From the IMG/VR virus record IMGVR_UViG_3300045107_000882, positions 1 to 35,682 of that record: a stretch of 35,682 bases of DNA. The stretch is one strand, 5' to 3'. Below, in pieces: positions 29,324 through 35,682 of the stretch (the stretch's first letter is position 1; every line of letters begins with the position of its first letter). Source of the stretch: a virus. The notes under the pieces are model-generated. The model had not been told where the DNA came from, did not search any database, and worked only from the letters and a program-made list of their open reading frames with translations. The translations under genes were made by a program, and so were the position numbers.

Positions 29324-29800
29324 CTAGCCGAGTGACGCGATCAACCGGCGTTGCTCATCCCAGTCGAAGGGCACCTTGGCCCGCAGGATGGCTTCCAGCG
29401 ACACCGTCCGAGGGAGTTTTCCTTCGTAGGCGGCCTGGATGATGTCCGGGGCGAGAAGCGCCAGTCGCAGCAGTTCGTTGATCGTGGAGCGGTGGACGCC
29501 CTCGCGCTCGGCGATTTCCATCGTCGATGCCACTGCCCCACTGTCGAGCAGCTGTTGCCAGTAGATGCCTCGCCCCAGCGCCTTGAGCAGAGGCTGATCC
29601 TGCTCGGGGGCGAGTACGGGTGACGCGGTGACGGCAACCGGCTGGCTGACGCCATCGGGAGCGACGATCACCTTCTTGATACCCCGTTTCTTGAAGTGGA
29701 AGGGCACGAAGGTAGTGATCCGCACGCCACCGCCCTCTAGTGGATGGCGGCGTTCGTGTGGTTTGCCGTCGCTGATCAGCTTTTTGGACGAGCGGTTCAT
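29324..29800 (-). CDS. HTH protein of the serine-recombinase module
   Basis: A 158-residue protein from ATG 29800, which overlaps the recombinase stop as ATGA. The middle is basic with a stretch VRITTFVPFHFKKRGIKKVIVAP, and the C-terminal half (ASTMEIAEREGVHRSTINELLRLALLAPDIIQAAYEGKLPRTVSLEAILRAKVPFDWDEQRRLIASLG) is a helix-turn-helix like that of ParB-type or resolvase-associated proteins. I recall this small gene as a regular partner of DUF2924-linked recombinases. It may aid site choice or control of the recombinase. Confidence 0.78.
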   Translation of the reverse strand: MNRSSKKLISDGKPHERRHPLEGGGVRITTFVPFHFKKRGIKKVIVAPDGVSQPVAVTASPVLAPEQDQPLLKALGRGIYWQQLLDSGAVASTMEIAEREGVHRSTINELLRLALLAPDIIQAAYEGKLPRTVSLEAILRAKVPFDWDEQRRLIASLG

Positions 29801-31164
29801 GACGTCACCTCCATTTGCAGCAGCTCGCCACCGATGGTGTCCGGGCTCAGTTCTCCGGCCAGTTCCCGCCATCCGGACTCACGCCAGATGATGTCGACGC
29901 CGTCGGAGAGCAGCTGGACACGCTCGATCAAGAGATTGACCAGTCGCACCTGCTCGGCAGGGAATAGTTGCTTCCAAACCTCGCCGAGGCGGCGCATCGC
30001 CAGAACCACGGTCGGTTCGTCGATCCCTGGGTATTTGTCGCAGACGGCATTCCATACCCCTTGGATGCTCTCCGGTGCCTGGAGCGAGCCCACCAGCAGA
30101 TTCACCACCACCTCCTCGATTTGGTCGGCCGGAATCATCCCGGTGGCGCTGCTGCGGTAGCCGTACCGCTTGTCCGCCTTGGGGATGTAGTAGCGGTATT
30201 TCTTCCCCGATGGCTTCTTGCTGTAGGTGATGTGGTACTTGCAGCCGTCAGGCCCGTACATCAACCCGCGCAGTAGAGCGTCAGTCTTGTGCTTGGTTTG
30301 GGTGTGCCCCATCCGCTCCCAACTGTCTTCCGCGAGGATGGCCTGCACCCGATCCCAAAGCTGCCGTGAGATGATTGGCTCGTGCTGGCCGGCATAGATC
30401 GTGCCCTTATGCCGGATTTCCCCGACGTAGATCGGGTTGCGCAGCGTTTTGGAGATGTACTTTTTGTCCATGGGCGTGCCGTTGCGGTAGCCGCCCGTCT
30501 TCAGACGAATCGGTTTCGTGGTCAGCCCCTCGGCCGCCATTTCCCGGCATACGTCGGTGACGGATCTGGTTTCCGTGAATCGTTGAAAAATACGCCGGAT
30601 GATTTCCGCGTCCTTTTCGACGATGATCAGCTTGCGATCCTTTACCTCGTAGCCGAGAGGCGTGTAGCCACCCATCCAGATGCCCTTGCGCTTGCTGGCG
30701 GCTATCTTGTCGCGGATGCGCTCCCCGGTGACCTCTCGTTCGAACTGTGCGAAGGACAGCAGAATATTGAGCATCAGCCGCCCCATCGAGGTGGTGGTGT
30801 TGAACTGCTGCGTCACCGACACAAACGACACCTTGTGCCGTTCGAACACTTCCACGAGCTTGGCGAAGTCGGTCAGGCTGCGCGTCAGGCGGTCGATCTT
30901 GTAGACCACCACGATGTCGATCTGGTCGGCGACGATATCGGCCATCAGGCGCTTCAAGGCCGGGCGTTCCATGTTGCCACCGGAGTAGCCGCCGTCGTCG
31001 TAGTCGTCACCCACCGGCATCCAGCCCTCGGCGCGCTGACTCACGATGTAGGCATGGCCCGCCTCGCGCTGAGCATCGAGGGAGTTAAAGGACTGGTCGA
31101 GACGCTCATCCGTAGAAACGCGCGTGTAGACGGCGCAGCGTTTTTTGGTCACGACGGCGTTCAT
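29797..31164 (-). CDS. Large serine recombinase (phage integrase)
   Basis: A 455-residue protein from ATG 31164 (ATGA with DUF2924). The resolvase domain has the catalytic Ser at 17 in YTRVSTDERLDQ, then GYSGGNMERPALKRLM, YKIDRLTRSLTDF and QFEREVTGERIRDKI. The recombinase domain follows (TPLGYEVKDRKLIIVEKDAEIIRRIF). The zinc-ribbon position (GLMYGPDGCKYHITYSKKPSGKKYRYYIPKADKRYGYRSS) keeps the strand pattern but lacks the usual CxxC pairs. It should carry out prophage integration and excision; att sites were not found in the window by eye. Confidence 0.93.
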   Translation of the reverse strand: MNAVVTKKRCAVYTRVSTDERLDQSFNSLDAQREAGHAYIVSQRAEGWMPVGDDYDDGGYSGGNMERPALKRLMADIVADQIDIVVVYKIDRLTRSLTDFAKLVEVFERHKVSFVSVTQQFNTTTSMGRLMLNILLSFAQFEREVTGERIRDKIAASKRKGIWMGGYTPLGYEVKDRKLIIVEKDAEIIRRIFQRFTETRSVTDVCREMAAEGLTTKPIRLKTGGYRNGTPMDKKYISKTLRNPIYVGEIRHKGTIYAGQHEPIISRQLWDRVQAILAEDSWERMGHTQTKHKTDALLRGLMYGPDGCKYHITYSKKPSGKKYRYYIPKADKRYGYRSSATGMIPADQIEEVVVNLLVGSLQAPESIQGVWNAVCDKYPGIDEPTVVLAMRRLGEVWKQLFPAEQVRLVNLLIERVQLLSDGVDIIWRESGWRELAGELSPDTIGGELLQMEVTS

Positions 31165-31622
31165 TTCGCGCCTCGCTTTGAATTTCCCTTGATGATTCCG
31201 AAGAACAGCGGCCCAGACCATTGGGTGCCAGTGATGTGGCGGGCTACGGCTGACAGACTTTTATAGCGGCGGCCCTCGTACTCAAAGGTGCCGTCGGCCT
31301 GCGCCGTCACACGGTGCTCACGACTGTCGAACTCGCGCACCAGCACCGTGCCGGGCACGACCTGGACCTCGACGCCGCGCTGGGTTTTGATGTTCGACAG
31401 GGCTTCGCCGATGCGGGCCATTTGCGTCTGCACGGCTAGCTTGGTATTCAGCGCCTCCTCCTGAATCTTGTAGGCAACACGGCCCTCAACGTAGGCGCGG
31501 TTATGGTGGTGCGGGCGACGCGGGAAATACTTGTCCCAAAGCGCCCACAGATCGTTCATGGGCAGCTTGGGCAGATTGGCTATTTGCGCTGCCAGGGTCG
31601 GGCCGGTTATCGGGATATTCAT
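31161..31622 (-). CDS. DUF2924 family protein
   Basis: A 153-residue protein. ATG at 31622 is seven bases from AAGGAG, better than a TTG two codons upstream. LPKLPMNDLWALWDKYFPRRPHHHNRAYVEGRVAYKIQEEALN and GTVLVREFDSREHRVTAQADGTFEYEGRRYKSLSAVARHITGTQWSGPLFFG match DUF2924 (phage- and recombinase-associated); the latter part looks like a small DNA-binding RAMA-like domain. It is coupled to the recombinase and usually precedes it in mobile islands. Function is unknown. Confidence 0.9.
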   Translation of the reverse strand: MNIPITGPTLAAQIANLPKLPMNDLWALWDKYFPRRPHHHNRAYVEGRVAYKIQEEALNTKLAVQTQMARIGEALSNIKTQRGVEVQVVPGTVLVREFDSREHRVTAQADGTFEYEGRRYKSLSAVARHITGTQWSGPLFFGIIKGNSKRGAK

Positions 31623-32014
31623 TTGCAAACTCCTTCTGTAGAGGGGTTTGTATGAACGCGCTCGGGTGGCGAGAAGCCAAGTGAAATATCGCTGTCGCCA
31701 GGGCGTGTGGAATGCAGGCGGGCTATGGCGGCTGCGATGATTTCTGCGGCCTCACGCGCCCTCTGTCGTGGAGACATCAATTCAGGGAGAGTTTGTTCGA
31801 CGGTCATTTCGGCATCCAGTAAAGTAATCAGACCGTCACGAAGAATATGCGCCCAAGGCGGTCGGAGTATCCCGTTTTGGAGCGCATCAGCTGGGGTGAG
31901 CGAGATTACGAACAAATTCTTGATGGCATTTCTGGTCGCTCTCGCGGCGGGCAGTGCAGGTGCCGAAACAATCAGTGGCAAGGTGATCGGCGTCTCCGAT
32001 GGCGACACGATCAC
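31619..32014 (-). CDS. Possible small gene at the head of the integration operon
   Basis: An open frame whose stop overlaps the DUF2924 ATG (ATGA), the operon's usual coupling. The C-terminal 60 residues (MTVEQTLPELMSPRQRAREAAEIIAAAIARLHSTRPGDSDISLG, start possible at 31807) look like a small helical protein. The N-terminal part overlaps the antisense thermonuclease remnant and is doubtful; no ribosome site decides the start. Function is unknown. Confidence 0.4.
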   Translation of the reverse strand: MIVSPSETPITLPLIVSAPALPAARATRNAIKNLFVISLTPADALQNGILRPPWAHILRDGLITLLDAEMTVEQTLPELMSPRQRAREAAEIIAAAIARLHSTRPGDSDISLGFSPPERVHTNPSTEGVCK

Positions 32015-32451
32015 CGTGCTCGACGCCGAAAGGACTCAATACAAGATCCGGGTGGCTGGGATCGACGCGCCGGAGAAGGCGCAACCCTTCGGCCAGCGGG
32101 CAAAAGAGTCCTTGTCCACTTTGGTTTTTGGGGAGGGAGGTCGATGTCCTGTGGCGCAAGCGTGACCGCTACCAGCGGATCATTGGCAAGGTGATGGTGG
32201 CCGAACAGACATGCCAATCGCCGTCATGCCCGAAGACGGTGGATGCCGGCCTCGTGCAGATCACGAGCGGCCTTGCGTGGTGGTACCGAAAGCACGCATC
32301 AGAGCAAACCGTCGAGGATGCACAAGGCTACGAGACGGCGGAGCGGAAGGCGCGAGCACGGCGGATCGGGCTTTGGTCAGAAGGCCAGCCAGTCCGCCTT
32401 GGGACTGGCGTCACACCTCACGCCAGTAGGGCCGCAAAGCCGCAGTTTTAG
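31923..32451 (+). pseudogene. Thermonuclease (SNase)-like gene with a one-base frameshift
   Basis: The first frame encodes a signal-like start MAFLVALAAGSAGA, then ISGKVIGVSDGDTITVLD and IRVAGIDAPEKAQPFGQRAKESLSTLVFG, the SNase calcium/Arg motifs. At a G-rich run (about 32130-32141) the frame changes by one base; removal of one G restores FGEEVDVLW. The second frame continues with RKRDRYQRIIGKVMVAEQTC, the second catalytic Arg, and ends KARARRIGLWSEGQP, then a stop at 32449. Both halves are conserved, so this is a recent break or a sequencing error. A start with good ribosome site is not evident; signs favour a secreted or periplasmic nuclease when intact. Confidence 0.82.
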
Positions 32452-32465
32452 CGGAGTCGCTTCAA

Positions 32466-32494
32466 TTGACCTGATTTATATCAGGTCATATATT
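32466..32494 (+). promoter_or_regulatory. Promoter of the LexA-like/QueC-like operon
   Basis: TTGACC (32466-32471) and TATATT (32489-32494) are exactly 17 bases apart. The promoter lies 24 bases before the start of the LexA-like gene, after the nuclease remnant. The spacer is filled by the dyad in the next entry. Confidence 0.75.
32467..32488 (+). promoter_or_regulatory. Operator dyad between -35 and -10
   Basis: TGACCTGA, six bases (TTTATA), TCAGGTCA: a perfect dyad with 8-bp arms that covers nearly the whole spacer between -35 and -10. A dimeric repressor here would block polymerase directly. The LexA-like winged-helix gene that follows is the obvious candidate. It differs from the E. coli LexA box (CTGT-N8-ACAG). 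Confidence 0.72.
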
Positions 32495-32786: not shown

Positions 32787-33575
32787 ATGGGGCATGTTCG
32801 GCTTGGGCTGTTACCAAGAACGAGGGCGTGGAAGGAAGTCGTCGGGCTAATCGCCGCCGGTGCCGACGTCTCCCAGATCGCCAATGCCACCATCACTGCT
32901 GCGGAAAAGGCCTTCTCCTCCGTAATGAAGGATGTGGGCTACACCGAGGCAGTCTGGTTGATGACCCAGATGGCGATTGCCGCCAAGAAGCCCGACATCC
33001 ATCAGCACCTCGCAGCGGTGGGGATCCATCTCCCCGCTGAACCGTCACTTATCGACGTGACCACGGCGATCACCGAGGCACTGGATCGCCGTGTGGAGGG
33101 CAACGGCCAACGCTCCGATCTGGGCAACCTTGCCAATCGGGCCATCGTTGGTGCCGTCAACGATGTTTTGTCGCCCAAACTCCATTCGCTGTTTTCTTCC
33201 GATCCAGACACGATGCGGGCAGCCCTTGCAAACTTGGGCAAGCCGAAGGAATTCGGCGAGTTTTCACGGCGCTTCTTTGCGAGACTGGCCAACGAGGGGC
33301 TTCAGTACTTTCTGAGCAAGGTCATAAACACCCAGCTTGGCGAAGGGATGCGCTTTGCATCGATGAATCAGTCTGCCCAATTCAATGCGGCATTGGAAAC
33401 ACATACCCGAGAGGCGTCCGTCATCGTCGAAAAATTTTCGAGCGAGTGGTTTTCCAAGCACCGGTTTCATGAGGGCGGCGATATTTCCAGAAAATCGTCG
33501 GATGGATTCGCAGGCTATGCCCTGAAAAAGATGAAGGACGAATTGAAGGCGGGGGCGCGTAGCGATGCAAGATAA
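32787..33575 (+). CDS. QueC-associated Met-Gly protein (candidate QatB-like acceptor)
   Basis: A 262-residue protein; the ATG has AAGGGGAG with six bases spacing, which fixes the start as MGHVRLGLLPRTRAWKEVVGLI. Gly at position 2 would be exposed after Met removal. The sequence is helical, with VWLMTQMAIAAKKPD (57-70), SDLGNLANRAIVGAVND (110-126), GEFSRRFFARLANEGLQYFLSKVINTQLGEG (157-187) and AALETHTREASVIVEKFSSEWFSKHRF (201-227). I recall close relatives in other bacteria next to QueC-like genes, from memory only. It overlaps the QueC-like gene by 11 bases. It has no enzyme motif. The role as conjugation target is inferred by analogy with Qat. Confidence 0.72.
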   Translation: MGHVRLGLLPRTRAWKEVVGLIAAGADVSQIANATITAAEKAFSSVMKDVGYTEAVWLMTQMAIAAKKPDIHQHLAAVGIHLPAEPSLIDVTTAITEALDRRVEGNGQRSDLGNLANRAIVGAVNDVLSPKLHSLFSSDPDTMRAALANLGKPKEFGEFSRRFFARLANEGLQYFLSKVINTQLGEGMRFASMNQSAQFNAALETHTREASVIVEKFSSEWFSKHRFHEGGDISRKSSDGFAGYALKKMKDELKAGARSDAR

Positions 33576-35682
33576 GCGATACGTTCTGTGCGGCAACGCG
33601 TCCGCCAAAGGCATCAGCGAAGATCCCTCGCGCGATCTGCGCCTGCGTCTCTCGGGAAAAGCGGGGCACGGCAACATCACCCTGCGCATCGAGGATGTCC
33701 ACAGCAAGCTGTTTCGTGGCGTGCCGCCGCTGTTCCACGACCTACTGGAGATCGCCACCTACGTATACAGCGCCGACCAGGTGGTCAGACGCGGCGCAGA
33801 TGATGTTGACAACTTCGGTGATGCCTGGCGACGCGACCTACACTTCGTGATTCCAGTCCGCAACCCGGATTTTTGGAACAGCGCGCAGGTAAATGAGACG
33901 CTGTGTTCGACACTCGGATTTTTGTCAGACGACCAGTACCGGTTCGATTTCGTCAAACTTGACCAGGATCACCAGTTCCAGGATTACCTTGAGTTCAACG
34001 ACACTCAGCAGATGTACGGTATGCCGGAGCAGGTGGTGATGTTTTCTGGCGGGCTGGACTCACTGGCGGGTGCCATTGATGAAGTTGTGAACCAGAAGAG
34101 GCGCGTGCTTCTGGTCACTCACAAGTCAACCTCGAAGCTCAACAAGCGCCACCGCACGCTCGAAGAGATGCTCGTTGAGAAAGCGGGCGACAACGCGCCG
34201 CATCGCATCAGCGTCCGCGTTCATAAGACCAAGGAGCTGAACCACGAATACACACAGCGCAGCCGGTCATTCCTGTACGTCTCCCTCGGCGCGACGATTG
34301 CCAGGATGCTTGGCCTTACGAGCGTGCGCTTTTACGAAAACGGCGTCATCAGCCTCAACCTGCCGGTGTGCGCCCAAGTGGTCGGCGGCCGCGCCACAAG
34401 GACGACGCACCCCAGGGTGATGAAGGGTTTTCAAGACCTCCTCTCGCTGATAGCGGGTGAAACCTTCACCGTCGAGAACCCGTACATATGGAAAACCAAG
34501 GCCGACGTGGTCAAGGTCATCATGGATGCGGGCTGCCACGACCTGATCAAGCATTCGATGACCTGTACGCACACCTGGGAGATGACGAACCAGCACACCC
34601 ATTGCGGGGCCTGCTCCCAGTGCATTGACCGGCGCTTTGCCATCCTATCCGCCAAGGCAGATCAATATGATCCGGTCGAGCACTACAAGTTTGACGTGTT
34701 TACCCAAAGTCGGGACAAAGGCGAGGACAAGATCATGGCGGCGGCCTATCTGGAGCGCGCCAACCAAGTGAAAGGCCTGACCGACGTAGCGCAGTTCATC
34801 AGCAGCTACCCGGACGTTGGCAGGGTATTCAAGTACCTCAACTACAGCAGTCTAGGGCCAGCAGCGCAGCGAGTGTTCGATCTCTATAAGCGCCACGCTA
34901 ACGAAGTGATGGGAGCGCTGGACGAACTGCTCAGCCGTCATCGCACCGCGATTCGTGAGCGGACGCTGCCCGGAGATTGCCTGCTTCAAACGGTTTACCA
35001 GGCGAATTCCGTGATTTCAATACCCGCCGTGGTCTCAGCAGAAAAGCAGCCGGAGAACTTCTTCCGCAAGCGCGGTGCAGTTTGGGAGGCGCGATTCCAG
35101 GGTCGCAATACCATCTGCCTGCTCAACGTAGACAAGGGCGCGGAGTACATCAACCTCCTGCTGGCATTTCCGGATCGTGAGGCGTCGGTGTATGAGATTG
35201 CCTGCGGAAGCGCAGTCAACGCTATTGATCTACCTTCTCATTCTGGCGTAGCACCTGAAGATATCGAAGAGGGGTTCCAAGTGACACAAGGCGTCCCTCT
35301 AGGAGATGCTGGAGACGTTGCGGACAGACGGGCTCTGAATGAGTGCAAGCAGCGGGCGCAGGAATTGTTCGGTGAGATGGAGGACGCGCGTGAGCTTGGT
35401 GACCATGCCCGCATCGAGGAGATCGAAACGGAGATGGCTGCCTTGGTCAAGTTCATTGAGAGTGGCAAGGGCCTCGGCGGGCGGCAACGCAAAGCCGGGG
35501 ACAAGCGCAAGAACGTCCGAGATGCCTTCCGAAACGCCGTTGACCGGGCCATCAAGCAAATCGAGAAGTACGACAAGCCGTTGGCGCAGCACCTCAAAGA
35601 CACGATCAAGATTAGTAACGAGGTTGTCTATCGGCCCGGGATTCCCATCACTTGGGATGTCCGCCCCATCGTTAACGGGTAG
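33565..35682 (+). CDS. QueC-like PP-loop protein with C-terminal regulator-type extension
   Basis: A 705-residue protein. Residues about 150-365 are a QueC-like domain: PP-loop SGGLDSLAG (161-169) and a zinc set Cys334, Cys347, Cys350 and Cys353 in CTHTWEM...HCGACSQC, as in QueC. The N-terminal 150 residues are beta-rich and unassigned. Residues about 497-545 (NFFRKRGAVWEARFQGRNTICLLNVDKGAEYINLLLAFPDRE) and 585-698 (helical; EMEDARELGDHARIEEIETEMAALVKF, KNVRDAFRNAVDRAIKQIEKYDKPLAQHLKDTI) resemble a C-terminal module I know from AAA/BTAD-type regulators. QueC itself is about 230 residues, so this is a large elaboration. The stop codon is the last three bases of the window, so further genes of the operon may follow. 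A role in deazaguanine-to-protein conjugation is inference. Confidence 0.85.
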   Translation: MQDKRYVLCGNASAKGISEDPSRDLRLRLSGKAGHGNITLRIEDVHSKLFRGVPPLFHDLLEIATYVYSADQVVRRGADDVDNFGDAWRRDLHFVIPVRNPDFWNSAQVNETLCSTLGFLSDDQYRFDFVKLDQDHQFQDYLEFNDTQQMYGMPEQVVMFSGGLDSLAGAIDEVVNQKRRVLLVTHKSTSKLNKRHRTLEEMLVEKAGDNAPHRISVRVHKTKELNHEYTQRSRSFLYVSLGATIARMLGLTSVRFYENGVISLNLPVCAQVVGGRATRTTHPRVMKGFQDLLSLIAGETFTVENPYIWKTKADVVKVIMDAGCHDLIKHSMTCTHTWEMTNQHTHCGACSQCIDRRFAILSAKADQYDPVEHYKFDVFTQSRDKGEDKIMAAAYLERANQVKGLTDVAQFISSYPDVGRVFKYLNYSSLGPAAQRVFDLYKRHANEVMGALDELLSRHRTAIRERTLPGDCLLQTVYQANSVISIPAVVSAEKQPENFFRKRGAVWEARFQGRNTICLLNVDKGAEYINLLLAFPDREASVYEIACGSAVNAIDLPSHSGVAPEDIEEGFQVTQGVPLGDAGDVADRRALNECKQRAQELFGEMEDARELGDHARIEEIETEMAALVKFIESGKGLGGRQRKAGDKRKNVRDAFRNAVDRAIKQIEKYDKPLAQHLKDTIKISNEVVYRPGIPITWDVRPIVNG

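Follow-up and report, generated by a model that had tools for sequence, protein, structure and literature searches.

A prophage-borne QatB–QatC-like gene pair whose QatC-like enzyme ends in a predicted winged-helix module at an exchangeable C-terminal slot

Why should an enzyme of the QueC fold end like a bacterial regulator? The question is raised by the last gene of IMGVR_UViG_3300045107_000882, a viral record of 35,682 bases that was analyzed over its whole length (hereafter, the window) and whose right end is the stop codon of that gene (TAG, positions 35680–35682). A first reading, made from the sequence alone, had described the 705-residue product as a QueC-like enzyme followed by a segment resembling the C-termini of AAA/BTAD-type regulators; the open reading frame, the coordinates and the peptides it quoted all proved exact when the sequence was re-read. 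We find that the gene is the second of a pair homologous to qatB and qatC, that the motifs of the enzyme are intact, that its C-terminal module is homologous to the ends of AAA/TPR regulators, that the slot occupied by this module has received different domains in different lineages, and that the pair is linked to phage integrase genes.

The label "QueC-like" is right as to the fold family but too generic, since the protein is specifically a QatC homolog. The PADLOC QatC profile spans residues 58–384 (E = 1.7e-59), the solved QatC chains 9vlk and 9zee are matched with E-values of 8e-35 and 5e-26, and the sequence homology to QatC covers the N-terminal extension as well as the QueC core. Alignment with six canonical QatC proteins shows that the SGGxDS loop, RxRSF, ENG, TRT[TA]HP, TK and the CGxCxxCxxRR zinc site are all preserved; the set specific to the QatC active site is thereby present (SGGxDS, RxR, TxT replacing Tyr/Asp, HP and the four zinc cysteines). 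These motifs are conserved in 143–145 of 145 relatives, the strict form TRTTHP being found in 132. In QatC, the T278/T280 pair stands where QueC and Cap9 have their Tyr/Asp base-binding residues (PMC13279940); according to our own mapping, the TxT of the window's TRT stretch is probably the counterpart of this pair. Judged by its sequence, the 705-residue protein is best described as a divergent relative of QatC and not as a canonical QatC. The end of the six canonical proteins falls near window residue ~455, and the window protein therefore carries about 250 extra residues.

The gene directly upstream, which overlaps the QatC-like gene by 11 bp, encodes a protein without a family match in the sequence libraries, PHROGs included, and with a weak sequence-profile match to QatB (probability 49, E = 1.7e-4). 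Its AlphaFold model (predicted local distance difference test score, pLDDT, 89) is all helical, with disordered first residues (pLDDT under 50 for residues 1–7). Foldseek was by itself uninformative for this model; VIA-align superimposed it on the QatB crystal chains 9y01_A (Z 14.2, 207 residues, root-mean-square deviation 3.8) and 9y02_A (Z 14.0, 206 residues), the next unrelated chain reaching only Z 7.3. The protein starts with MGHxRLGxLPxTRxW, the family pattern being MGH..LG.LP.[TS][RK].W. Among 124 distinct partners, L9 is conserved in 118, P10 in 113 and W15 in 116; the occurrence of Gly2 in 124/124 is partly circular, since the partner-finding script required Gly2 and one of H/S/Q/N as the third residue, while leaving positions 4–18 free apart from a loose LP or W pattern. 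This N-terminus recalls the tail of QatB, in which the N-terminal glycine is essential, Pro16 and Trp18 are conserved and the Pro/Trp stretch is essential (PMC13279940). From the fold match and the conserved N-terminus, we therefore assign the gene pair to QatB and QatC. Note that QatB and QatC of the Pseudomonas aeruginosa Qat system suffice, without the other Qat proteins, for protection against some phages (PMC13279940).

The pair thus assigned shares with qatABCD the QatC core with the motifs listed above and a QatB-fold partner encoded just upstream, whose N-terminus has a conserved Met-Gly followed by Pro and Trp. It differs from qatABCD in the ~250 additional QatC residues, in the tail of the QatB-like protein (~12 disordered residues versus 30–90, MGH.RLG versus MGTS), in its usual position beside serine integrases and in that neither QatA (a KAP NTPase) nor QatD (a TatD nuclease) was found: tblastn with six QatA and six QatD queries gave no match in ~190 loci, mostly with 6 kb flanks, the upstream side alone being visible at the window locus. 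A second point of comparison is Cap9 of type IV CBASS, also a QueC-fold enzyme acting on its partner's N-terminal glycine, an activity shown for Cap9 and proposed here by analogy; however, Cap9 is a minimal enzyme that retains the Tyr/Asp pocket of QueC where the window protein has the QatC-type TRT motif, and its partner is a CD-NTase instead of a QatB-like protein.

What, then, are the extra residues? They are absent from the six canonical QatC proteins compared, in line with the remark of the sequence-only reading that such a segment was not familiar from QatC. Used alone as a tblastn query (209 residues) against 7.3 Gb of plasmid records, the tail gave matches in Actinobacteria only: Nonomuraea (4e-12), two Streptomyces (3e-10 and 7e-8) and Embleya (4e-6). 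Every match lies at the C-terminus of its protein, which is an AAA/TPR regulator wherever the N-terminal part is visible; the full-length hosts contain AAA domains and mostly TPR repeats too. The FRREGEYW/LGGR pattern named in the sequence-only reading is found in Streptomyces P0001, in the form LRREGEYW...LKGTLGLAYLSRLLHDPDRE...LGGRDRR...ERARLNVTKALKSAIRRI. Comparison by hhalign of a profile of 55 QatC tails with one of four regulator tails gave a probability of 99.9 and E = 7e-37 over 182 columns, a match far beyond chance. Both approaches thus turn the suspected resemblance to regulator C-termini into homology and speak against the absence of any relation. The actinobacterial and myxobacterial AAA_16/TPR regulators (STAND, AfsR/MalT-like) contain the full-length module, including its helical insert, but carry it after NTPase and TPR domains, not after a QatC enzyme.

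Nor is the module a constant part of QueC-like homologs with no match elsewhere: it is not universal among them and occurs outside them. In whole-genome sets, whose phyla were taken from the organisms of loci L088, L106 and L050, it was found in 28 of the 199 Planctomycetota, in 9 of the 193 Myxococcota and in 4 of the 299 Pseudomonadota, on AAA/TPR-like proteins, TPR proteins, a helicase-domain protein, QatC proteins and short proteins. The helicase-domain protein, from Planctomycetota (L221, 1–2025), combines the module with helicase C-terminal and Hel308-like domains. Three proteins with TolB-like N-termini, as judged by eye, end with the module (L207, L229 and L243, the first two with TPR repeats), an arrangement in which the OmpR-type domain is usually at the other end; in four Planctomycetota loci (L215, L216, L227 and L238), short open frames of 257–305 residues consist mostly of the module. 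Despite this presence in several phyla, the module is without a Pfam model. The window tail gave nothing above cut-off in Pfam, PADLOC and NCBIfam and no match in PHROGs; when the tail profile was searched against PDB sequences, the matches were mostly helical or designed proteins that aligned to the insert. A hit of DUF1090 on the tail (E = 0.002) was rejected as a low-grade helical match to the insert.

Structure prediction, which the sequence-only reading had put forward as a check, yielded a tail model with a mean pLDDT of 77.8 (85–98 in the core blocks) that is best read as a winged helix of the OmpR type interrupted by a helical insert: three β strands are followed by helices 1 and 2, then by the helical hairpin, a long helix 3 and the wing (β-β-β-H-H-[HH]-H plus wing). 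VIA-align aligned it with the DNA-binding domains of CosR, PhoB, ToxR and GlnR over 88–94 residues (Z 5.5–6.1), skipping the hairpin. In keeping with this, an insert-less profile of the tails matched a profile of eight Escherichia coli OmpR-family domains in the expected register with E = 2.5e-4, versus 0.05 for an unrelated control profile (QatB) and 0.2–0.44 for column-shuffled ones. The charges of the two helical parts are opposite: the insert has a net charge of −10 in the window (family median −8) and is acidic in every member, and the helix 3 segment has a charge of +6 (family median +6, range +2 to +9) and is basic in every member. A winged helix of the OmpR/PhoB type, in which an acidic helical hairpin stands ahead of a basic recognition helix, is therefore a well-supported prediction for the module. 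The order in which its strands, helices and wing are predicted to follow one another is that of the OmpR/PhoB domain (PF00486), but the window tail differs from this domain by an acidic insert of ~90 residues ahead of helix 3 and by the lack of a Pfam match, whereas clear PF00486-type tails occur in other lineages of the same clade. As a speculation, the acidic hairpin might cover the DNA-binding face like a built-in lid, given its place next to the basic helix.

Far from being a one-off, the fusion is the rule in a large clade. From two motif scans, 152 relatives were confirmed in genome contigs, of which 80 were kept, and 79 in viral contigs; in the genome set, a collection with one genome per species, the pair is present in at least 152 places. 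Its carriers belong to Pseudomonadota, Planctomycetota, Verrucomicrobiota, Thermodesulfobacteriota, Acidobacteriota, Myxococcota, Bacteroidota and Calditrichota, with, in addition, one Krumholzibacteriota and one Leptospira plasmid. Of the 145 distinct complete proteins, 103 end in a window-type tail, 26 in a winged helix of the OmpR type and 13 in another tail; 3 are truncated. Pfam Trans_reg_C was detected in 7 of 76 tail representatives (best E = 1.5e-10), the OmpR-type tails of other lineages reach a profile E of 3e-9, and the tail of the Leptospira protein belongs to the DpnII-MboI nucleases (1.2e-9). Between window-type and OmpR-type tails of the clade, direct homology was not detectable (E = 0.04, or 0.01 without the insert), and we therefore treat them as two winged-helix lineages. 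Five tails had no Pfam match (L079, L160, L112, L169 and L097) and a sixth (L090) had a sub-threshold one only; any winged-helix look of these six is a judgment by eye. A tree of the cores sets the family apart from canonical QatC as a fully supported clade and requires the tail type to change 14 times; it was made by a quick method, has some long branches and bears tail labels assigned partly by eye. Tail types have thus been swapped repeatedly at the C-terminal slot of QatC.

Taking these observations together, we give about an even chance to the explanation that the window encodes a prophage-borne, stand-alone QatBC immune module whose C-terminal slot tethers the complex to DNA. For the pair, we infer N-terminal modification, DNA binding and defense: the QatC-like enzyme, using ATP, would pair with the QatB-like protein and act on its N-terminal glycine, as has been suggested in qatABCD and demonstrated with Cap9, and the winged helix would hold the complex on DNA, either incoming phage DNA or a DNA structure arising during infection. 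In qatABCD, DNA is bound by QatA and a nuclease function is predicted for QatD (PMC13279940); the slot may therefore replace them, giving a single protein the part in DNA handling or as effector that may belong to QatA/QatD in qatABCD. In other lineages, the same position is filled by other winged helices or, in Leptospira, by a DpnII/MboI-type nuclease.

Several points weigh against this explanation. Even for qatABCD, the 2026 structural paper leaves the reaction of QatC open (PMC13279940). The match to the NCBI QatC model NF041925 (3.7e-67) scores 226.9 bits, below the equivalog cut-off of 280, and QatA and QatD could be encoded elsewhere in the host. As to the module, the best Foldseek match of the tail is not significant (E = 1.2) and the OmpR-type rows of VIA-align rank below helical matches to the insert, so that the winged-helix fold rests on the combination of a model with profile evidence of weak to moderate strength. 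Finally, the isoelectric point of the whole tail is acidic (5.6), and winged helices serve also as protein-interaction domains. That acidity, along with the acidic insert, would suit a tail that recognizes a protein (a phage-protein trigger or a host factor), holds QatB or dimerizes QatC, and makes no DNA contact; frequent swapping at one slot would fit target sensing too, and the C-terminal extension of canonical QatC contacts QatB (PMC13279940). We nevertheless consider protein recognition rather unlikely: helix 3 is basic in all members, and among the unrelated tails several are winged helices of the OmpR type or a DNA endonuclease, whose common link is DNA and not a protein partner.

If the module binds DNA, the target might be the gene's own promoter. 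In actinobacterial AAA/TPR regulators, the homologous module occupies the output position, and the fusion could make QatC an autorepressor and control its expression only. The region upstream of the pair makes this improbable. A LexA-like gene precedes qatB in the window's close clade only (43 of 124 distinct loci), and a palindrome, TGACCTGATnnnnATCAGGTCA, stands at a constant place before the qatB operon in ~35 close-clade loci. The palindrome is a probable operator and the LexA-like protein likely the operon's own repressor; with the promoter of this clade already taken in this way, autoregulation by the QatC tail becomes less likely. In addition, distant clades lack a common upstream palindrome and the slot is a nuclease in Leptospira. 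Tethering of the QatBC complex to DNA would operate, in the window's clade, alongside transcription that is probably under a separate LexA-like repressor acting at the palindrome.

The genetic setting bears on whether the pair serves the bacterium or the phage. Besides the large serine integrase (phrog_95, 5e-111), PHROGs identified a Sak4-type protein and a primase in the window; owing to these genes we regard it as a prophage-type record, with the QatC-like gene at its integrase end. A relative of the window integrase lies at most 4.5 kb upstream in 59 of the 91 distinct loci with enough sequence, a linkage that is descriptive; a DUF2924 gene often accompanies the integrase near the pair, and phage-like genes, recognized by eye from their translations, follow the pair in some elements. 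This fixed place beside the integrase module, with phage early genes in many elements, could mean that the pair works for the phage itself, in lysogeny control or host take-over, and not in defense. We find this quite unlikely, as the pair is homologous to an experimentally tested two-protein defense core, as cargo next to the integrase is a usual site of prophage defense genes, and as the pair also occurs on the Leptospira plasmid and at other loci without an integrase.

Somewhat more tentatively than for the window alone, we propose that these pairs form a widespread, autonomous, phage-carried two-gene Qat family, in which QatBC is a general-purpose immune core whose output is set by a swappable DNA-targeting or nuclease module. 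We found no description of such a family in the literature, few subscription papers being within the search, and current tools would probably miss the pair because its QatC score falls below the NCBI cut-off and QatA and QatD are absent. How QatC acts on QatB and stops phages is an open question (PMC13279940) on which natural two-gene pairs bear: a minimal QatB–QatC pair without detectable QatA/QatD and with built-in, exchangeable output domains makes the core, DNA-contact and effector roles testable.

Table 1. Positions of the QatB–QatC-like pair, its predicted domains and neighboring features in the window
Feature	Positions	Strand	Basis
Large serine integrase of prophage	29797..31221	-	phrog_95 5e-111; relatives adjoin most family members
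DUF2924 protein, integrase partner	31161..31628	-	PF11149 2e-40
Palindrome TGACCTGATTTATATCAGGTCA	32467..32488	.	0 expected by chance in window
LexA-type DNA-binding-domain protein, 77 aa	32518..32751	+	PF01726 2.2e-14
QatB-like partner, 262 aa, N-terminus MGHVRLGLLPRTRAW	32787..33575	+	VIA-align to QatB crystal 9y01_A; conserved N-terminus
QatC-like protein with C-terminal (predicted) winged-helix module, 705 aa	33565..35682	+	PADLOC QatC 1.7e-59; NF041925 3.7e-67; PDB 9vlk 8e-35
QatC/QueC core, residues 58-393: SGGLDS, RSRSF, ENG, TRTTHP, TK, HCGxCxQCIDRR	33736..34743	+	Alignment with six canonical QatC
Helical extension and linker, residues 394-490	34744..35034	+	First part aligned with C-terminal helices of canonical QatC
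C-terminal module, residues 491-705	35035..35679	+	hhalign E 7e-37 and tblastn 4e-12 to actinobacterial AAA/TPR regulator C-termini
Three predicted β strands and winged-helix helices 1 and 2, residues 499-554	35059..35226	+	AlphaFold2 model
Predicted loop and acidic helical-hairpin insert, residues 555-645	35227..35499	+	AlphaFold2 model; skipped in PhoB alignment
Predicted helix 3 (basic, recognition type) and wing, residues 646-693	35500..35643	+	AlphaFold2 model, PhoB alignment, charge

Some minor observations concern individual loci. Between the DUF2924 and LexA-like genes of the window lies a staphylococcal-nuclease-like gene, named by eye (31923–32451, plus strand), with a frameshift near 32130; its frame is intact in related loci, e.g. 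L021. The QatC frame ends early, before or inside the tail, in four relatives (L060, L104, L168 and L012), which are perhaps decaying copies. The Leptospira locus (L032, 4207–6851) is on plasmid p1 of Leptospira noguchii and encodes a QatB-like partner together with a QatC fused to the DpnII-MboI restriction-endonuclease domain. On a Bradyrhizobium plasmid (L199, 3139–5296), a glycine-rich protein starting with MGSGSFGGG is encoded beside a QatC-like gene, followed by an ASCH-domain gene; this locus, without qatA or qatD annotation, is possibly another Qat variant.
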